Virus record (IMG/VR): IMGVR_UViG_3300048997_000487
Location: 1-35,259 of that record
Strand: one strand, 5' to 3'
Source of the DNA: a virus
Length of the DNA: 35,259 nt
Positions 3,282 to 10,711 of this stretch are shown here, one piece after another; position 1 is the first letter of the stretch, and each line of letters starts with the position of its first letter. A program made the translations under genes and the position numbers. A model generated the notes under the pieces. That model was given only the letters and a program-made list of their open reading frames with translations, searched no databases and was not told the origin of the DNA.

Positions 3282-3628
3282 AGGTCATCACCGTCCCCAC
3301 CGACCTGTGGGACACCAGCCGCAACGCCCTCGCCGCCGCCGGCGTGCGGCTGGACGAGGTCACGACCGGCCCCGGCCAGGCGCCCCGCTACGTGGCGAGC
3401 GAGCTGCGCCCCGGCGGCACGTCGACGAACCTGACGGACCGCGAGACCGAGGCGCTACGCGGGATCGCCGCGGGCCGGTCGAACGCGGAGATCGGCCGCG
3501 ACATCGGCGTATCCGAGGACACCGTGAAGTCGCACGTGAGCACCCTGCTTCGCAAGCTGGGTGCCCGCAACCGCTTCCACGTCGTCGCCCTGGCCTACGA
3601 GTCCGGCCTGCTCGGTGGTGCCAAGTGA
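3278..3628 (+). CDS. LuxR-type (GerE) HTH transcriptional regulator
   Basis: Protein of 116 aa with the start set by the ATGA overlap at 3278. Residues 1-50 are of unknown fold. Residues 52-112 form a complete GerE/LuxR DNA-binding domain: LTDRETEALRGIAAGRSNAE, then IGVSEDTVKSHVSTLLRKLG with the recognition helix VKSHVSTLLRKL, then the dimerisation helix. It lacks a response-regulator receiver or an autoinducer domain, so it is probably constitutively competent for DNA binding or senses through its short N-terminus. It is overlapped by the RapZ-C-like gene, so the two are produced together. Its target could be a later phage promoter; that is speculation. Confidence 0.88.
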   Translation: MKVITVPTDLWDTSRNALAAAGVRLDEVTTGPGQAPRYVASELRPGGTSTNLTDRETEALRGIAAGRSNAEIGRDIGVSEDTVKSHVSTLLRKLGARNRFHVVALAYESGLLGGAK

Positions 3629-3996
3629 CCATCACCATCACCAGCTTCGGCTACGGCCACGACGCGCCGCCGCCCGCGCACATCACCCTCGACGTGCGCA
3701 GCTTCTTCCGGGACCCCCACATCGACCCCGAGCTGCGCGAGATGACCGGCCGGGACCAGCGGGTCATCGACAGCGTCATGAAGCAGCCGCGTGCACACTG
3801 GACGGCCCTGCACTTCGCCGACATCCTGCGCGGCCTGGCAAGCGTGGGTGTCGATGTGCACCTGGCCATCGGCTGCACTGGTGGCAAGCACCGTGCCCCC
3901 GTTCTCGCCAACGTGATCGCCGGTCACGTCGGCGTGGCCGCGCAGCACCGGGACATCGACAAGCCGGTTCTCCCCAGGCGGGACGGTGCCCGGTGA
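3625..3996 (+). CDS. Stand-alone RapZ C-terminal-domain-like protein
   Basis: Protein of 123 aa using a GTG start that overlaps the previous stop (GTGA). The whole chain matches the C-terminal domain of RapZ (YvcJ family): ITSFGYGH at 5-12, LDVRSFFRDPHIDPELREMT at 22-41, and the signature AIGCTGGKHRAPVLAN at 81-96, followed by QHRDIDKP. In enterobacteria this domain binds small RNAs (GlmY/GlmZ) and glucosamine-6-phosphate and regulates cell-envelope precursor synthesis. The N-terminal P-loop kinase-like domain of full RapZ is absent. The motif is intact, so the ligand or RNA-binding pocket is probably functional. A role in phage or host RNA control is inference. Confidence 0.8.
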   Translation: MTITITSFGYGHDAPPPAHITLDVRSFFRDPHIDPELREMTGRDQRVIDSVMKQPRAHWTALHFADILRGLASVGVDVHLAIGCTGGKHRAPVLANVIAGHVGVAAQHRDIDKPVLPRRDGAR

Positions 3997-5008: not shown

Positions 5009-5346
5009 CGACCAAGTCCACACCGGACACCACCACGGAGCAGCGGACGTTCTCGTCCGTGCTCTTCGAGATCAACAAGGGCCGCACCCATGCCCAGCTC
5101 GGCGACGAGCTGCGCGCCCTGGTCGTCGCCGTCATGGAGACCGGCAAGCCCGGCTCCCTGACGCTGCGGCTGGACGTGAAGCCGTTGGGCGGCAACGACG
5201 AGGGCATCACCATCACCGGCCGCGTCGGCTCGAAGCTGCCGGCCTTCGCCACGCCGGCGTCGGTGTTCTTCGTCGACGACAAGCTCAACCTCAACCGCAC
5301 CCCCGGCAACCAGCCGCCCCTCTTCCAGGAGCCCGATTCCCGATGA
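5005..5346 (+). CDS. Conserved-type hypothetical early phage protein (DUF2303 partner)
   Basis: Protein of 113 aa from a GTG overlapping the previous stop. Sequence pattern: a helix (LGDELRALVVAVMET), then strands TLRLDVKPLG and GITITGRVG, then VFFVDDKLNLNRTPGNQPPL, typical of small beta-sheet phage proteins. The DUF2303-type gene starts within its stop codon. From memory, this type of protein sits beside DUF2303 genes in actinophages, suggesting a joint role in DNA metabolism, but no enzymatic motif is visible. Confidence 0.7.
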   Translation: MTTKSTPDTTTEQRTFSSVLFEINKGRTHAQLGDELRALVVAVMETGKPGSLTLRLDVKPLGGNDEGITITGRVGSKLPAFATPASVFFVDDKLNLNRTPGNQPPLFQEPDSR

Positions 5347-6206
5347 ACGCCGACCACATCAACGACCTGGTCGCGGCGGCCGCCGACCTCGGCCGCCGCG
5401 ACACCGAACGTCAGCTCACCACCACGACCGTCCACGAGGACACGTCCCTCGTCGTGGCCCGCCTGCGCCAGGACGAGCGCATCGCGGTGGAGAACCTCGA
5501 GAGGCACCTGGACGCGCCGCTGCGCTGCCGGGGCAACGCCGACCTGCACGACCCGAGCGACTTCACCGAGTACGTCAACCGCCTCGCCAACCCGCAGTAC
5601 ACCACCGTGTGGGCCGACCCCGACGCCGGCAAGTTTGTCGCGGTATTCGACGACCACGCCGACTTCGACGACGCCGGCTGGCGCTCCCACACCGCGACCC
5701 TCACCCTCAAGGCCGACCCCGACTGGGCCGCATGGCTGCTCCTGAGCAACAAGCCGGCCAGCCAGGCCTGGTTCGCCGAACACATCGAAGACCTGGCGCA
5801 CACGGTCATCGACCCGGACGCCGCGACGATGCTGGAACTGGCCCGCACCTTCGACGCCAAACGGAGCGTCAACTTCCGCAGCGGCGTCAAGCTGGAATCC
5901 GGCGACGTGCAGCTGACCTACGAGGAGACCACCAAGGCCCACGCCGGTGAGAAGGGTGAGCTGGAGGTCCCGTCCGCGTTCACCATCCGGGTCGCGCCAT
6001 TCCTGGGCGTGCCGCCCGCGGACATCTCCGCCCGGCTGCGGTGGCGCATCAGCGACGGCGAACTGTCCATCGGCTACGCGCTGCTGCGCCCGGACCGCGT
6101 CCGCCGCGACATCATCTCCGGCCTGATCATGGAGATGCGGGGCGAACTCGAGGACGTCCCGGTGTTCATGGGCACGCCACCGCCGGCCATCAAGCCAGCC
6201 GGATGA
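5343..6206 (+). CDS. DUF2303 (YfdQ-like) phage protein
   Basis: Protein of 287 aa. It begins with a helix and a stretch with the DUF2303 layout (RLRQDERIAVENLERHLDAP), continues with FTEYVNRLANPQYTTVWADP and VAVFDDHADFDDAGWRSHTA, and ends with a beta-rich region (FTIRVAPFLGVPP, ARLRWRISDGELSIGYALLR). DUF2303 proteins are found in recombination/replication regions of tailed phages and prophages (YfdQ in E. coli); biochemical function is unknown to me. Coupled by 4-base overlaps to genes on both sides. Family assignment rests on overall pattern recognition. Confidence 0.78.
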   Translation: MNADHINDLVAAAADLGRRDTERQLTTTTVHEDTSLVVARLRQDERIAVENLERHLDAPLRCRGNADLHDPSDFTEYVNRLANPQYTTVWADPDAGKFVAVFDDHADFDDAGWRSHTATLTLKADPDWAAWLLLSNKPASQAWFAEHIEDLAHTVIDPDAATMLELARTFDAKRSVNFRSGVKLESGDVQLTYEETTKAHAGEKGELEVPSAFTIRVAPFLGVPPADISARLRWRISDGELSIGYALLRPDRVRRDIISGLIMEMRGELEDVPVFMGTPPPAIKPAG

Positions 6207-7750: not shown

Positions 7751-8656
7751 ATGGAACTGGCCGGTACATTCGAGCCAGGCTCGCCCGAGTGGCACGCGTT
7801 GCGGGCCACGGGGATCGGCGCGTCCGAGGCCGCCGCCGTGCTCGGCCTGTCCCCCTGGGAAAGCCCGTACTCGCTGTGGCAGCGCAAAGCCGGCCGCATC
7901 GGACCGATGCCCGAGTCCGAGGAGATGACCTGGGGCCACTACCTCGAAGAGCCGATCGCGCGCCGGTTCGCCGACCTGCACCCCAGCCTCACCGTCGAGC
8001 GCACCGGCACGTGGCGCTCCACCGAGCTGCCCTGGCAGTTGGTCAACCCCGACCGGCTGGCCGTCGGCCTCGACGACGGCGTCGTGCCGGTCGAGGTCAA
8101 GTTCGCCCCCTACGGCCGCGAGTTCGGGGACTCCGGCACCGAGGACATCCCCCTGCACTACCGCGCCCAGATCCTCCAGCAGTGCGATGTGCTCGACGCC
8201 CCCTACGGCTGGCTCGTCGCCCTCGTTGGCGCCGACTACCGCGAATACCGCATCGACGCCGACCCGCTGGACATCGCCGTCCTACGCGAACGGTGCGGCC
8301 GGTTCTGGGCGTCCCTGCCCACCGAGAACAACCCCGCCGGCCACCCGCCCGCCATCGATGAGAGCGGCCACACCTTCCGCGCGCTCAAGGAGCTCCACCC
8401 CGACATCGACGACATCGACCACGAGGTCAACCCAGTCCTAGCCGCCCGGATCCGCGACGCCCAGTTTTTCGCCAAGGAAGCCGGCGACGGCCTGTTGCAG
8501 GTCAAGAACGAGCTACTCGACGCGATGGGCCGCGCCCGCCGCGCCCGCTACGGCGGCGAGTCCGTCGCCACCCGATACGTCAGCCGCGGCGCCCTCGCGC
8601 TGCGCCTCACCCCCCTGCCCAAGCCAACGGGCTCAACCCTCACGGAGCACCTATGA
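7751..8656 (+). CDS. YqaJ-type viral recombinase / lambda-exonuclease-like nuclease
   Basis: Protein of 301 aa in the lambda exonuclease/YqaJ family, which resects double-stranded DNA ends 5'-3' to allow single-strand annealing. Motifs are intact: GIGASEAAAVLGLSPWESP (21-39), WGHYLEEPIARRF with Glu66/67, VNPDRL with Asp101, VPVEVKF with Glu115 and Lys117 as the D-(D/E)XK core, and YRAQILQQCDVL with the conserved Gln140 and Gln143. The C-terminal 90 residues are helical. Preceded by GAAGGG. It should act with an annealing partner, but no RecT/Bet protein is recognisable in the window. Catalysis is expected. Confidence 0.9.
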   Translation: MELAGTFEPGSPEWHALRATGIGASEAAAVLGLSPWESPYSLWQRKAGRIGPMPESEEMTWGHYLEEPIARRFADLHPSLTVERTGTWRSTELPWQLVNPDRLAVGLDDGVVPVEVKFAPYGREFGDSGTEDIPLHYRAQILQQCDVLDAPYGWLVALVGADYREYRIDADPLDIAVLRERCGRFWASLPTENNPAGHPPAIDESGHTFRALKELHPDIDDIDHEVNPVLAARIRDAQFFAKEAGDGLLQVKNELLDAMGRARRARYGGESVATRYVSRGALALRLTPLPKPTGSTLTEHL

Positions 8657-9453
8657 CGACGACCCTGCGCGACGCCGTGGCCCAGCGAGCCGCGCGCCTC
8701 TCCGAACCACCACAGCGATCGACGATGTTCGAAACCCCGGCCGGTCCACTGTGGTCGGTCACCGCGATCGCCGAACGCGCCGAACCCCGCGAGGACCTGG
8801 TCACCTGGCAGACGTGGATGCTCAGCACCCTCGCCCACACCCACCGCGGCCGCCTCGAGCTGCTCGGCGCAGCCGGACCGCAATGGCTGCACGAACAGCT
8901 CATGGCCTACCGCGACGCCGCCGGCATCATGGGCCGCGCCGTGCACGACGCCCTGGACGCCCGCATCCTCGAGGCGCCGCGCCCGCAACCCACCGAAGAG
9001 CAGGCGCCGTTCGTCGCCGCATTCGAGCGGTTCGAGGCCGACCACACGCCGGGATGGGACGCCGCCGCCATGACCGTCGCGAAGATCGACGGCCCCGGCG
9101 CCACGTGGGCCGGGCGGGCCGACTTCTTCGCCATCATCGACGGCCGAATGGTTGTCGGCGACTTCACCACCGCCCGCCGCCTCGAGGTCGCCGCGCTCAA
9201 GCTCGTCGGGCTGTCCATGTGCGACACCGGCTGGGTGGTGCTGCGCGATGGCACGGAGGTCGAACCGCCCGAGGTCGCCGGCGCCGTGATCGTGCACCTG
9301 CGGCCCGACCTGTACCCCGACACCGGCTACCGGCTCGTGCCCGTCGACATCACCGACTGGACCATGGGCGCGTTCGAGGCGGCCGCGCTGATGGTGCACC
9401 GCTACGACCAGACGGGCGGCCTGTTCACCCCGCCCGCGACCGGTGGTGCCTGA
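8653..9453 (+). CDS. PD-(D/E)XK nuclease-like protein with degenerate active site
   Basis: Protein of 266 aa overlapping the exonuclease gene by four bases. Its layout matches Cas4/RecB-like PD-(D/E)XK proteins of phages: GRAVHDALDAR with His98 near the N-terminal helix, then TWAGRADFFAIIDGRMVVGD with Asp157 and Asp170. In active relatives the strand reads D-x-K-T (for example DYKT). Here it is DFTT, with Thr172 in place of the catalytic Lys, and the following Gln-Y helix motif is also not kept (ALKLVGLSMCD). It may be a non-cleaving structural or DNA-binding paralogue. Family placement is fairly confident; inactivity is inference. Confidence 0.72.
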   Translation: MTTTLRDAVAQRAARLSEPPQRSTMFETPAGPLWSVTAIAERAEPREDLVTWQTWMLSTLAHTHRGRLELLGAAGPQWLHEQLMAYRDAAGIMGRAVHDALDARILEAPRPQPTEEQAPFVAAFERFEADHTPGWDAAAMTVAKIDGPGATWAGRADFFAIIDGRMVVGDFTTARRLEVAALKLVGLSMCDTGWVVLRDGTEVEPPEVAGAVIVHLRPDLYPDTGYRLVPVDITDWTMGAFEAAALMVHRYDQTGGLFTPPATGGA

Positions 9454-10577
9454 TGGCCATCCTCACGCTCCAGCGCCGCTCCCGCGAGCTGGGCCGCATC
9501 CGCATCGGCCAGCAGGTCCCCACCGGCACCGAGGGCAAGACGCGGCCCGTGAAGCTGGACAAGTTCCGGCTCACCTCGGCCAGCCGGCCGCTACTGGAGA
9601 AAGCCGCCGCGCTGTACGGCGGCGAGGTCGTCGAGTGGAACAACGGTGGCAGCGCCCAGTTCGAGGTGTTCACCACCTCGACCCGGCTGCCGGTCCTCGT
9701 CCCACCCCAGCCGGTCAGTCAGTTCTTCGAGCTGTGGTCCGGCGGCGGCTGCCAACGCCGCTGCGACGGCGAACGCGAGCTCCTGACCGACCAGCCCTGC
9801 CTGTGCGACCCGGATCCGGAAGACCGGCTGTGCAAGCCCACCACCCGGCTCAACGTCGTCTTGCGCGACGTCGAGGGCGTCGGTGTGTGGCGCCTGGAAA
9901 GCCACGGCTACTACGCGGCGACCGAGTTGCCATCGACCGCCGAGTTCCTGGCCCAGCAGGCCGGCTACATCACCGGGTGGCTGTCCCTCGAGGCACGCAC
10001 CGTCGTGCGGAACGGGAAGACGAAGCGGTTCGCGGTGCCCATCATCGAGGTCGACGTCACGCCGGCCGCGCTGATGGCCGGCGGTGCCGGGCCGGCCGCG
10101 CTGCCCGCCGCACCCACGCCGGCCGCCGCGCCCAGCACGCCACCGGTCACCCTCGCCGACATCCAGGCCGCCGCGTCACACGACGAGTTGCGGGTGCTGT
10201 GGGACCGAGGCCGGGCCGGCGGTCAGCGCGACGACCGGGCACTGGCGGACGCGGTGCGGGCCCGCGCGACCGAACTGGAACGCGCCAGGCCCGAACCGGG
10301 CGCCGAGACACCGCCGGCCGAGGCGAGCAAGCCGCCGACCCGCGACCAGTTCGCCAAGATGCACGCCCAGCTCGCCGAGTGCGGCGTCACCGAGGCCGAG
10401 CGGCACGCCACCCTCGGCACGCTCGTCGGCCGGCAGATCACCTCGGCCAACGAGCTCACCGACGTCGAAGCCGGCTCGATCATCGAGCTGCTCGGCAGGT
10501 GCACCGGGCAGGCCGAGCCGGCCCGCGCCCTCGACCACTACCTGTCCAACCTCGACACCGGAAACGAGGAGTCATGA
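9453..10577 (+). CDS. phiC31 gp3-like protein (recombination directionality factor family) with C-terminal extension
   Basis: Protein of 374 aa; the start shares a base with the preceding stop (TGATG). Residues about 5-205 match the pattern I know for the gp3 family: RIRIGQ, KLDKFRLTSASRPLLEKAAA, LYGGEVVEWN, LPVLVPP, then FFELWSGGGCQRRCDGE with CLCDP and CKPTTRLN (Cys100, 104, 116, 118, 127, a probable zinc site), then GVWRLESHGYYAATELP. In phiC31 this protein tells a serine integrase to excise. Residues about 206-374 are an Ala/Pro linker and charged helices not in the minimal family. Its function here is uncertain because the element's integrase is a tyrosine recombinase; it sits instead with recombination nucleases. 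Confidence 0.75.
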   Translation: MAILTLQRRSRELGRIRIGQQVPTGTEGKTRPVKLDKFRLTSASRPLLEKAAALYGGEVVEWNNGGSAQFEVFTTSTRLPVLVPPQPVSQFFELWSGGGCQRRCDGERELLTDQPCLCDPDPEDRLCKPTTRLNVVLRDVEGVGVWRLESHGYYAATELPSTAEFLAQQAGYITGWLSLEARTVVRNGKTKRFAVPIIEVDVTPAALMAGGAGPAALPAAPTPAAAPSTPPVTLADIQAAASHDELRVLWDRGRAGGQRDDRALADAVRARATELERARPEPGAETPPAEASKPPTRDQFAKMHAQLAECGVTEAERHATLGTLVGRQITSANELTDVEAGSIIELLGRCTGQAEPARALDHYLSNLDTGNEES

Positions 10578-10711
10578 GGTGCGACTGCCCAGACGGCGAG
10601 TGCTATTGCCCCGACGGCAGCGAACCCCGCTGGTGCGGCCACGGCCCCGGCGGCACCTGCTCGGCAGGTCACTGCTTCGCCTGCGACGCCTGCTACTGCG
10701 GAGAGGACTGA
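10574..10711 (+). CDS. Cysteine-rich 45-aa protein
   Basis: Starts in the ATGA overlap at 10574 and encodes 45 aa with nine Cys and two His: MRCDCPDGECYCPDG, WCGHGPGGTC and HCFACDACYCGED. The even spread of CxC and CxxC pairs suits two zinc sites or a metallothionein-like cluster. Acidic overall. No family is recognised. The Cys codon pattern is unlikely to arise by chance in a non-coding frame. Confidence 0.65.
   Translation: MRCDCPDGECYCPDGSEPRWCGHGPGGTCSAGHCFACDACYCGED

Follow-up and report, generated by a model that had tools for sequence, protein, structure and literature searches.

Gp3-like proteins related to the phiC31 directionality factor: probable phage exonuclease partners in the place of RecT

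Gene content of the locus

The window is the whole stretch of DNA that was analysed, an IMG/VR virus contig of 35,259 b, which is classed 'linear' and is possibly a fragment. A tyrosine integrase is encoded on the minus strand at 1-1248 (PF00589, E 3.7e-16; PF14659, E 5.9e-7). The plus-strand gene at 2433-2696 codes for a Xis/MerR-like HTH protein (HTH_17, E 1e-5; phrog_66 excisionase, E 6e-4), which is likely the real directionality factor of this integrase. Both proteins had been recognized in an earlier note made from the letters alone, and the profile matches bear this out. The same note had named a serine integrase elsewhere in the element as an argument against its view. No gene with a Resolvase domain (PF00239) was found within the possibly partial record, beyond which a serine integrase is conceivable. 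A protein with a RapZ C-terminal domain (3307-3996; PF22740, E 6.8e-23) is encoded in the phage early region. Upstream of the module described below lies the gene for a DUF2303/phrog_210 protein (5343-6206, E 9e-55).

The module comprises three genes on the plus strand. A nuclease of the YqaJ/lambda-exonuclease family (7751-8656; PF09588, E 1.2e-20; phrog_434 RecE-like, E 7e-73; TIGR03033, E 2.6e-24) has residues that resemble the active site of this family (NPDRL, VEVK, Q). It is followed by a homologue of the PD-(D/E)XK exonucleases of phrog_298 (8653-9453, E 1.4e-9), a family that is an exonuclease by its PHROG name, and by the gene for a Gp3-like protein of 374 aa (9453-10577), an open frame with an ATG start. 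The genes overlap head to tail, with ATGA between YqaJ and the exonuclease homologue and TGATG between the latter and the Gp3-like gene. Thus, the gene is indeed located among recombination nucleases, as had been claimed. An ORF of 45 aa that belongs to no family (10574-10711, plus strand) overlaps the Gp3-like stop codon (ATGA).

The N-terminal domain of the Gp3-like protein

The N-terminal 200 residues had been said to resemble phiC31 gp3. The proposed profile comparison reveals a clear relation: Residues 13-200 match PF18897 ('Gp3-like / Recombination directionality factor-like') with E 1.4e-44 and 152.7 bits (cut-off 23.6), and the match comprises model positions 1-190 of 191, i.e. the whole domain. 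With phmmer, the protein matches the phiC31 RDF chain 9teh_I (E 1.2e-9). Its AF2 model (pLDDT 88.6, pTM 0.60) aligns with 9teh_I over 192 residues (Z 18.6, rmsd 3.5) and has the same fold as the solved gp3. The phiC31-gp3 domain spans residues 10-202 (9480-10058, plus strand) and is composed of an OB-like beta core with the conserved cysteines CDG...PCxC; C104 and C116 are invariant. For RDFs of the phiC31 type, four zinc ligands have been predicted from models (PMC11530663). In the gp3-like proteins of phages Eden and Liebe, the zinc-site cysteines are lost.

In structure comparisons, the N-domain yields weak matches to many OB-folds of SSB and RPA proteins (Z 3-4.2). No relation to the RecT/Rad52 core was detectable. 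The RecT core profile (PF03837) matches neither the Gp3-like protein nor anything else in the record. A Rad52-type fold is absent from the aligned structural matches to the Gp3-like models, an absence that proves nothing.

The C-terminal tail

The C-terminal extension noticed earlier is present and about 165 residues long. It contains a helical linker module (residues 234-278; 10152-10286, plus strand), for which AF2 predicts helices at 234-239, 243-255 and 262-278. This module is common to the long-tailed Gp3-like clade, and its profile matches 138 Gp3-like ORFs and, weakly, also 2 RecT ORFs. Residues 291-355 (10323-10517, plus strand) form a C-terminal domain (CTD) of the RecT/Red-beta type according to fold and profile matches. 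Its model aligns with the Red-beta CTD 8tg7_A over 65 of 66 residues (Z 9.0, rmsd 2.1) and with 6m9k_F, which is bound to lambda exonuclease, at Z 8.7, with the next match far lower at 4.5; helical bundles may match by chance at such Z. A profile built from the RecT C-termini of the exonuclease census described below matches the window CTD with E 3.4e-11 among 29,404 ORFs, and in a control with shuffled tails it recognized 0 of 1,230 at E<0.01. In addition, the RecT family phrog_4171 matches the window protein (E 2.5e-6). A sequence search of the PDB with the CTD alone found nothing. The CTD of Red-beta interacts with the exonuclease and with SSB in lambda but not with DNA (PMC8303780). The window CTD is homologous to RecT C-termini and is of the type of the Red-beta exonuclease/SSB docking domain.

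Among the fetched loci, the RecT-type CTD is carried by 56 RecT proteins, 10 Gp3-like proteins including that of the window and 2 others. A small private C-terminal domain restricted to Gp3-like proteins is found in 123 ORFs (e.g. L059:8957-10042) and may dock on their own exonucleases. RecT is not recognized by a general profile built from the tails of all Gp3-like proteins because most of these tails are this different, private domain. When the majority domain was modelled separately from phage mu1/6, neither a match to Red-beta nor any other clear structural match was obtained. Therefore, the result for the window CTD is not to be generalized to the family. The phiC31 branch of Gp3-like proteins has no C-terminal tail domain.

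Linkage to phrog_298 exonucleases and the RecT slot

Profile searches for Gp3-like proteins yielded 83 viral and 80 bacterial loci, mostly from Streptomyces, Nocardioides and their relatives, with at least three viral contigs counted twice under two locus ids. Altogether, 229 phage records contain a Gp3-like relative. Two of the genes (L126 and L133) lie outside Actinomycetota, on MAG contigs that were classified as Burkholderiales and Chloroflexi. Upstream room of at least 1.2 kb is available in 159 loci, and every one of these encodes a phrog_298 exonuclease homologue ahead of the Gp3-like gene in the same orientation, within 1.5 kb in 156 of them and within 3.3 kb in the rest. In bacterial genomes, this applies to 80/80 loci. 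The family profile matches the proteins of mu1/6, VWB, SF3, MinS1 and Shady as well as phiC31 gp1 with E 3e-30 to 5e-59. The Shady protein (gp27, L006:7940-8758) is annotated as 'DNA helicase', yet its match to phrog_298 has E 5e-59. The gene for phiC31 gp3 itself lies two genes after the phrog_298 exonuclease gp1. In tail-less gp3 loci, the exonuclease is found upstream in 56 of 61 within the sequence covered, at distances of up to 5.8 kb.

The position after the exonuclease can be filled otherwise. RecT occupies the slot behind an exonuclease of the same family that has no Gp3-like neighbour in the phages Hirko, Kukla, Frokostdame, Sleepyhead and Sonali. A census seeded with the exonuclease comprised 87 loci: RecT was found in 68, a Gp3-like gene in 12, neither of them in five, and two loci were too short. 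Both together were present in 0 of the 80 classified loci. Likewise, RecT was found in 0/50 and 0/49 of two sets of records with Gp3-like genes, and ERF and Rad52 in 0/50 each. The exonuclease tree shows one change between RecT and Gp3-like as partner, and each exonuclease lineage retains its partner, which fits cognate pairs. Due to this single split, the mutual exclusion goes back to one old exchange and not to many independent ones.

The nuclease module of the window

YqaJ, the nuclease on which the earlier note had focused, turned out to be an exception, as the general partner of Gp3-like genes is the phrog_298 exonuclease. YqaJ was considered as general partner and rejected, since PF09588 is found in 0/50 relatives; it is encoded directly upstream only in the window and in its closest relative, L009. 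Elsewhere, relatives of the window YqaJ are followed by RecT. When the source of the RecT-type tail was sought among these relatives, only RecT types outside the profiles used were encountered.

The exonuclease homologues of the window and L009 share a second peculiarity. All 165 other exonucleases have E, K and Q at the positions equivalent to 139, 172 and 183, which are A, T and K in these two. Based on its sequence, the window protein (8653-9453; E139A, K172T, Q183K) is predicted to be catalytically dead. Between window and L009, dN/dS amounts to 0.29 for the exonuclease homologue, the same value as for the Gp3-like gene (0.29). The homologue, predicted to be inactive, is thus kept by purifying selection. 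We infer that the module was rebuilt: The nuclease would have been replaced, the old exonuclease would remain as a scaffold and the Gp3-like protein would have acquired a RecT-type tail.

Gp3-like genes and integrase type

On the tree of Gp3-like proteins, long-tailed and tail-less forms are cleanly split with support 100. For the long-tailed clade, to which the window belongs, 50 records of at least 35 kb were surveyed for integrase type versus gene presence, as had been suggested. The gene is kept with either type: Tyrosine integrases were found in 28 and serine integrases in 12 of these records, and one record has both. Ten integrase switches are required on the Gp3-like tree, some of them between near-identical proteins (L039 with a tyrosine, L043 with a serine integrase). 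In the tail-less phiC31 branch, 32/49 records have a serine and 0/49 a tyrosine integrase. In the rest no integrase was found, and some of these phages are lytic. One of them is Eden, where exonuclease and gp3-like genes are annotated, the full annotation lists no integrase and neither the Resolvase nor the Phage_integrase profile finds a match (L198 = G051). Eden gp30 (L196:22210-22947) and its relatives carry the label 'recombination directionality factor' in Microbacterium phages without integrase. An 'RDF' gene has also been described in BAjuniper, a lytic phage without integrase (PMC10652889). Control of serine integrases may be confined to the tail-less branch, although serine integrases also occur in 12 of the long-tailed records.

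Mutation of G27, C117 or G119 in phiC31 gp3 abolishes integrase binding (PMC5814800). All three residues are conserved in the seven proteins compared, those of the window and of phages with tyrosine integrases included. As they are kept whatever the integrase, they probably report folding.

Comparison with known systems

The window protein shares with phiC31 gp3 (PF18897, PDB 9teh) the homologous N-domain and the location downstream of a phrog_298 exonuclease. It differs by its 165-residue tail with the RecT-type domain and by an element that has a tyrosine and no serine integrase. With RecT/Red-beta (PF03837, SynExo modules) it has in common the position after a PD-(D/E)XK exonuclease and the homologous CTD, whereas its core is a gp3 domain that is unrelated in sequence and a putative annealing protein only. 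Long-tailed Gp3-like proteins are also encoded by the Streptomyces phages mu1/6 (gp14), VWB (gp9) and SF3 (gp49), where they are annotated as 'hypothetical'. There, the genes for a phrog_298 exonuclease, a DnaQ-type exonuclease and RuvC adjoin the Gp3-like gene, and the integrases are outside the serine family. In contrast to the window, the exonuclease motif of these three phages is intact, YqaJ is missing and the C-terminal domain of the mu1/6 protein is the private one, not one of the RecT type. T7 gp2.5 and herpes ICP8 are proposed as functional analogues, i.e. OB-type annealing proteins; there is no sequence relation, and the OB matches are weak. Another RDF, Bxb1 gp47, also takes part in replication of the phage DNA (Savinov et al., 2012, as cited in PMC3836970). 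This protein belongs to a family unrelated to Gp3-like.

The role of Gp3-like proteins

The earlier note had offered two readings, an original role in recombination or replication from which the phiC31 function is derived, or a relic left behind after replacement of the integrase. The former is strongly supported by the exonuclease linkage, the RecT slot, the RecT/Red-beta-type CTD, the indifference to integrase type and the lytic phages. The latter finds no support. It would regard the gene as the lingering RDF of an earlier serine integrase, in agreement with the gp3 fold of the window protein and with the tail-less branch, in which all identified integrases are serine enzymes (32/49 versus 0/49 tyrosine). 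However, the gene persists beside a tyrosine integrase in 28/50 records, integrases flip repeatedly between close relatives, dN/dS of 0.29 indicates purifying selection, domains were gained and not lost, and lytic phages retain the gene (Eden; PMC10652889). This makes a relic extremely improbable. Scarcely better is the assumption that the protein is still a directionality factor that binds the tyrosine integrase and aids excision. Conservation of the integrase-binding positions G27, C117 and G119 in the window protein agrees with it, but the same positions are kept regardless of the integrase and look structural, and a Xis-like gene is already present in the record. Furthermore, tyrosine integrases are without a zinc domain and coiled coil. 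These are the parts to which gp3 binds (PMC5814800). We regard such a function as very improbable.

More serious is the idea that Gp3-like proteins are cofactors or mediators which bind the exonuclease and ssDNA or SSB like lambda Orf or SSB, while annealing is left to a host or other protein. The OB-like N-domain is nearer to SSBs than to Rad52-type annealases. Host RecA could provide strand exchange. The Red-beta CTD fold also occurs in lambda Orf, a mediator (PMC8303780). Nevertheless, the slot position and the exclusion against RecT specifically, as well as the RecT-homologous tail, indicate the slot of an annealase. Moreover, an OB-fold does not preclude annealing: T7 gp2.5 is an OB-fold protein that anneals. 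The same holds for herpes ICP8 (PMC12409425). A mere cofactor role is thus unlikely.

In our opinion, Gp3-like proteins are probably phage exonuclease partners that replace RecT, bind ssDNA and may anneal it, and directionality control in phiC31 is a co-opted second job. Such a role would explain the presence of the gene in lytic phages and in phages with the other integrase type. Whether the proteins perform true strand annealing is a nearly balanced question that leans slightly to the negative. Somewhat doubtful, too, is the most far-reaching version: a new family of annealing proteins with an OB core, unrelated to RecT/Rad52, in which the phiC31 RDF is a member with a second job and the window combines a foreign YqaJ, a RecT tail and a dead-exonuclease adaptor.

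The following course of events can be envisaged. A 5'-3' exonuclease, of the phrog_298 family in most relatives and YqaJ in the window, would resect phage DNA ends. In the window module, the inactive old exonuclease would be retained as a probable adaptor. The Gp3-like protein would load on the new 3' single strand, in the window by docking via its Red-beta/RecT-type CTD. Its N-terminal gp3 domain with the OB-like core would then cover the 3' strand and might promote annealing, which would join phage ends in replication, repair or recombination. Among the tail-less proteins of the phiC31 branch, this core would in addition have been recruited to bind serine integrases as RDF. Published observations on phiC31 support the scheme independently. 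Deletion of gp3 prevents plaque formation, an effect beyond that predicted from an excision defect, which the authors took to mean that gp3 is needed for DNA replication (PMC3836970). Gp3 also self-associates (PMC3132441). An argument against the scheme is that gp3 without integrase did not bind att-site DNA, for which duplex DNA was used (PMC3132441). The weak OB-fold matches, the N-domain with no detectable relation to the RecT/Rad52 core, the restriction of the RecT-type tail to 10 Gp3-like ORFs and the single partner change on the exonuclease tree likewise count against it. In a limited literature search, no link of gp3-type proteins to exonuclease-annealase modules was found.

Significance

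Together, phiC31 integrase and gp3 serve as a standard tool in genome engineering, and the other function of gp3 is still without a mechanistic explanation. If the proposed role as exonuclease partner is true, it would correct the label 'recombination directionality factor' on many actinophage genes. Candidate pairs for recombineering in Streptomyces, Microbacterium and Arthrobacter would be a further gain. Finally, phiC31 gp3 would be a clear case of an RDF that was recruited from a recombination protein.
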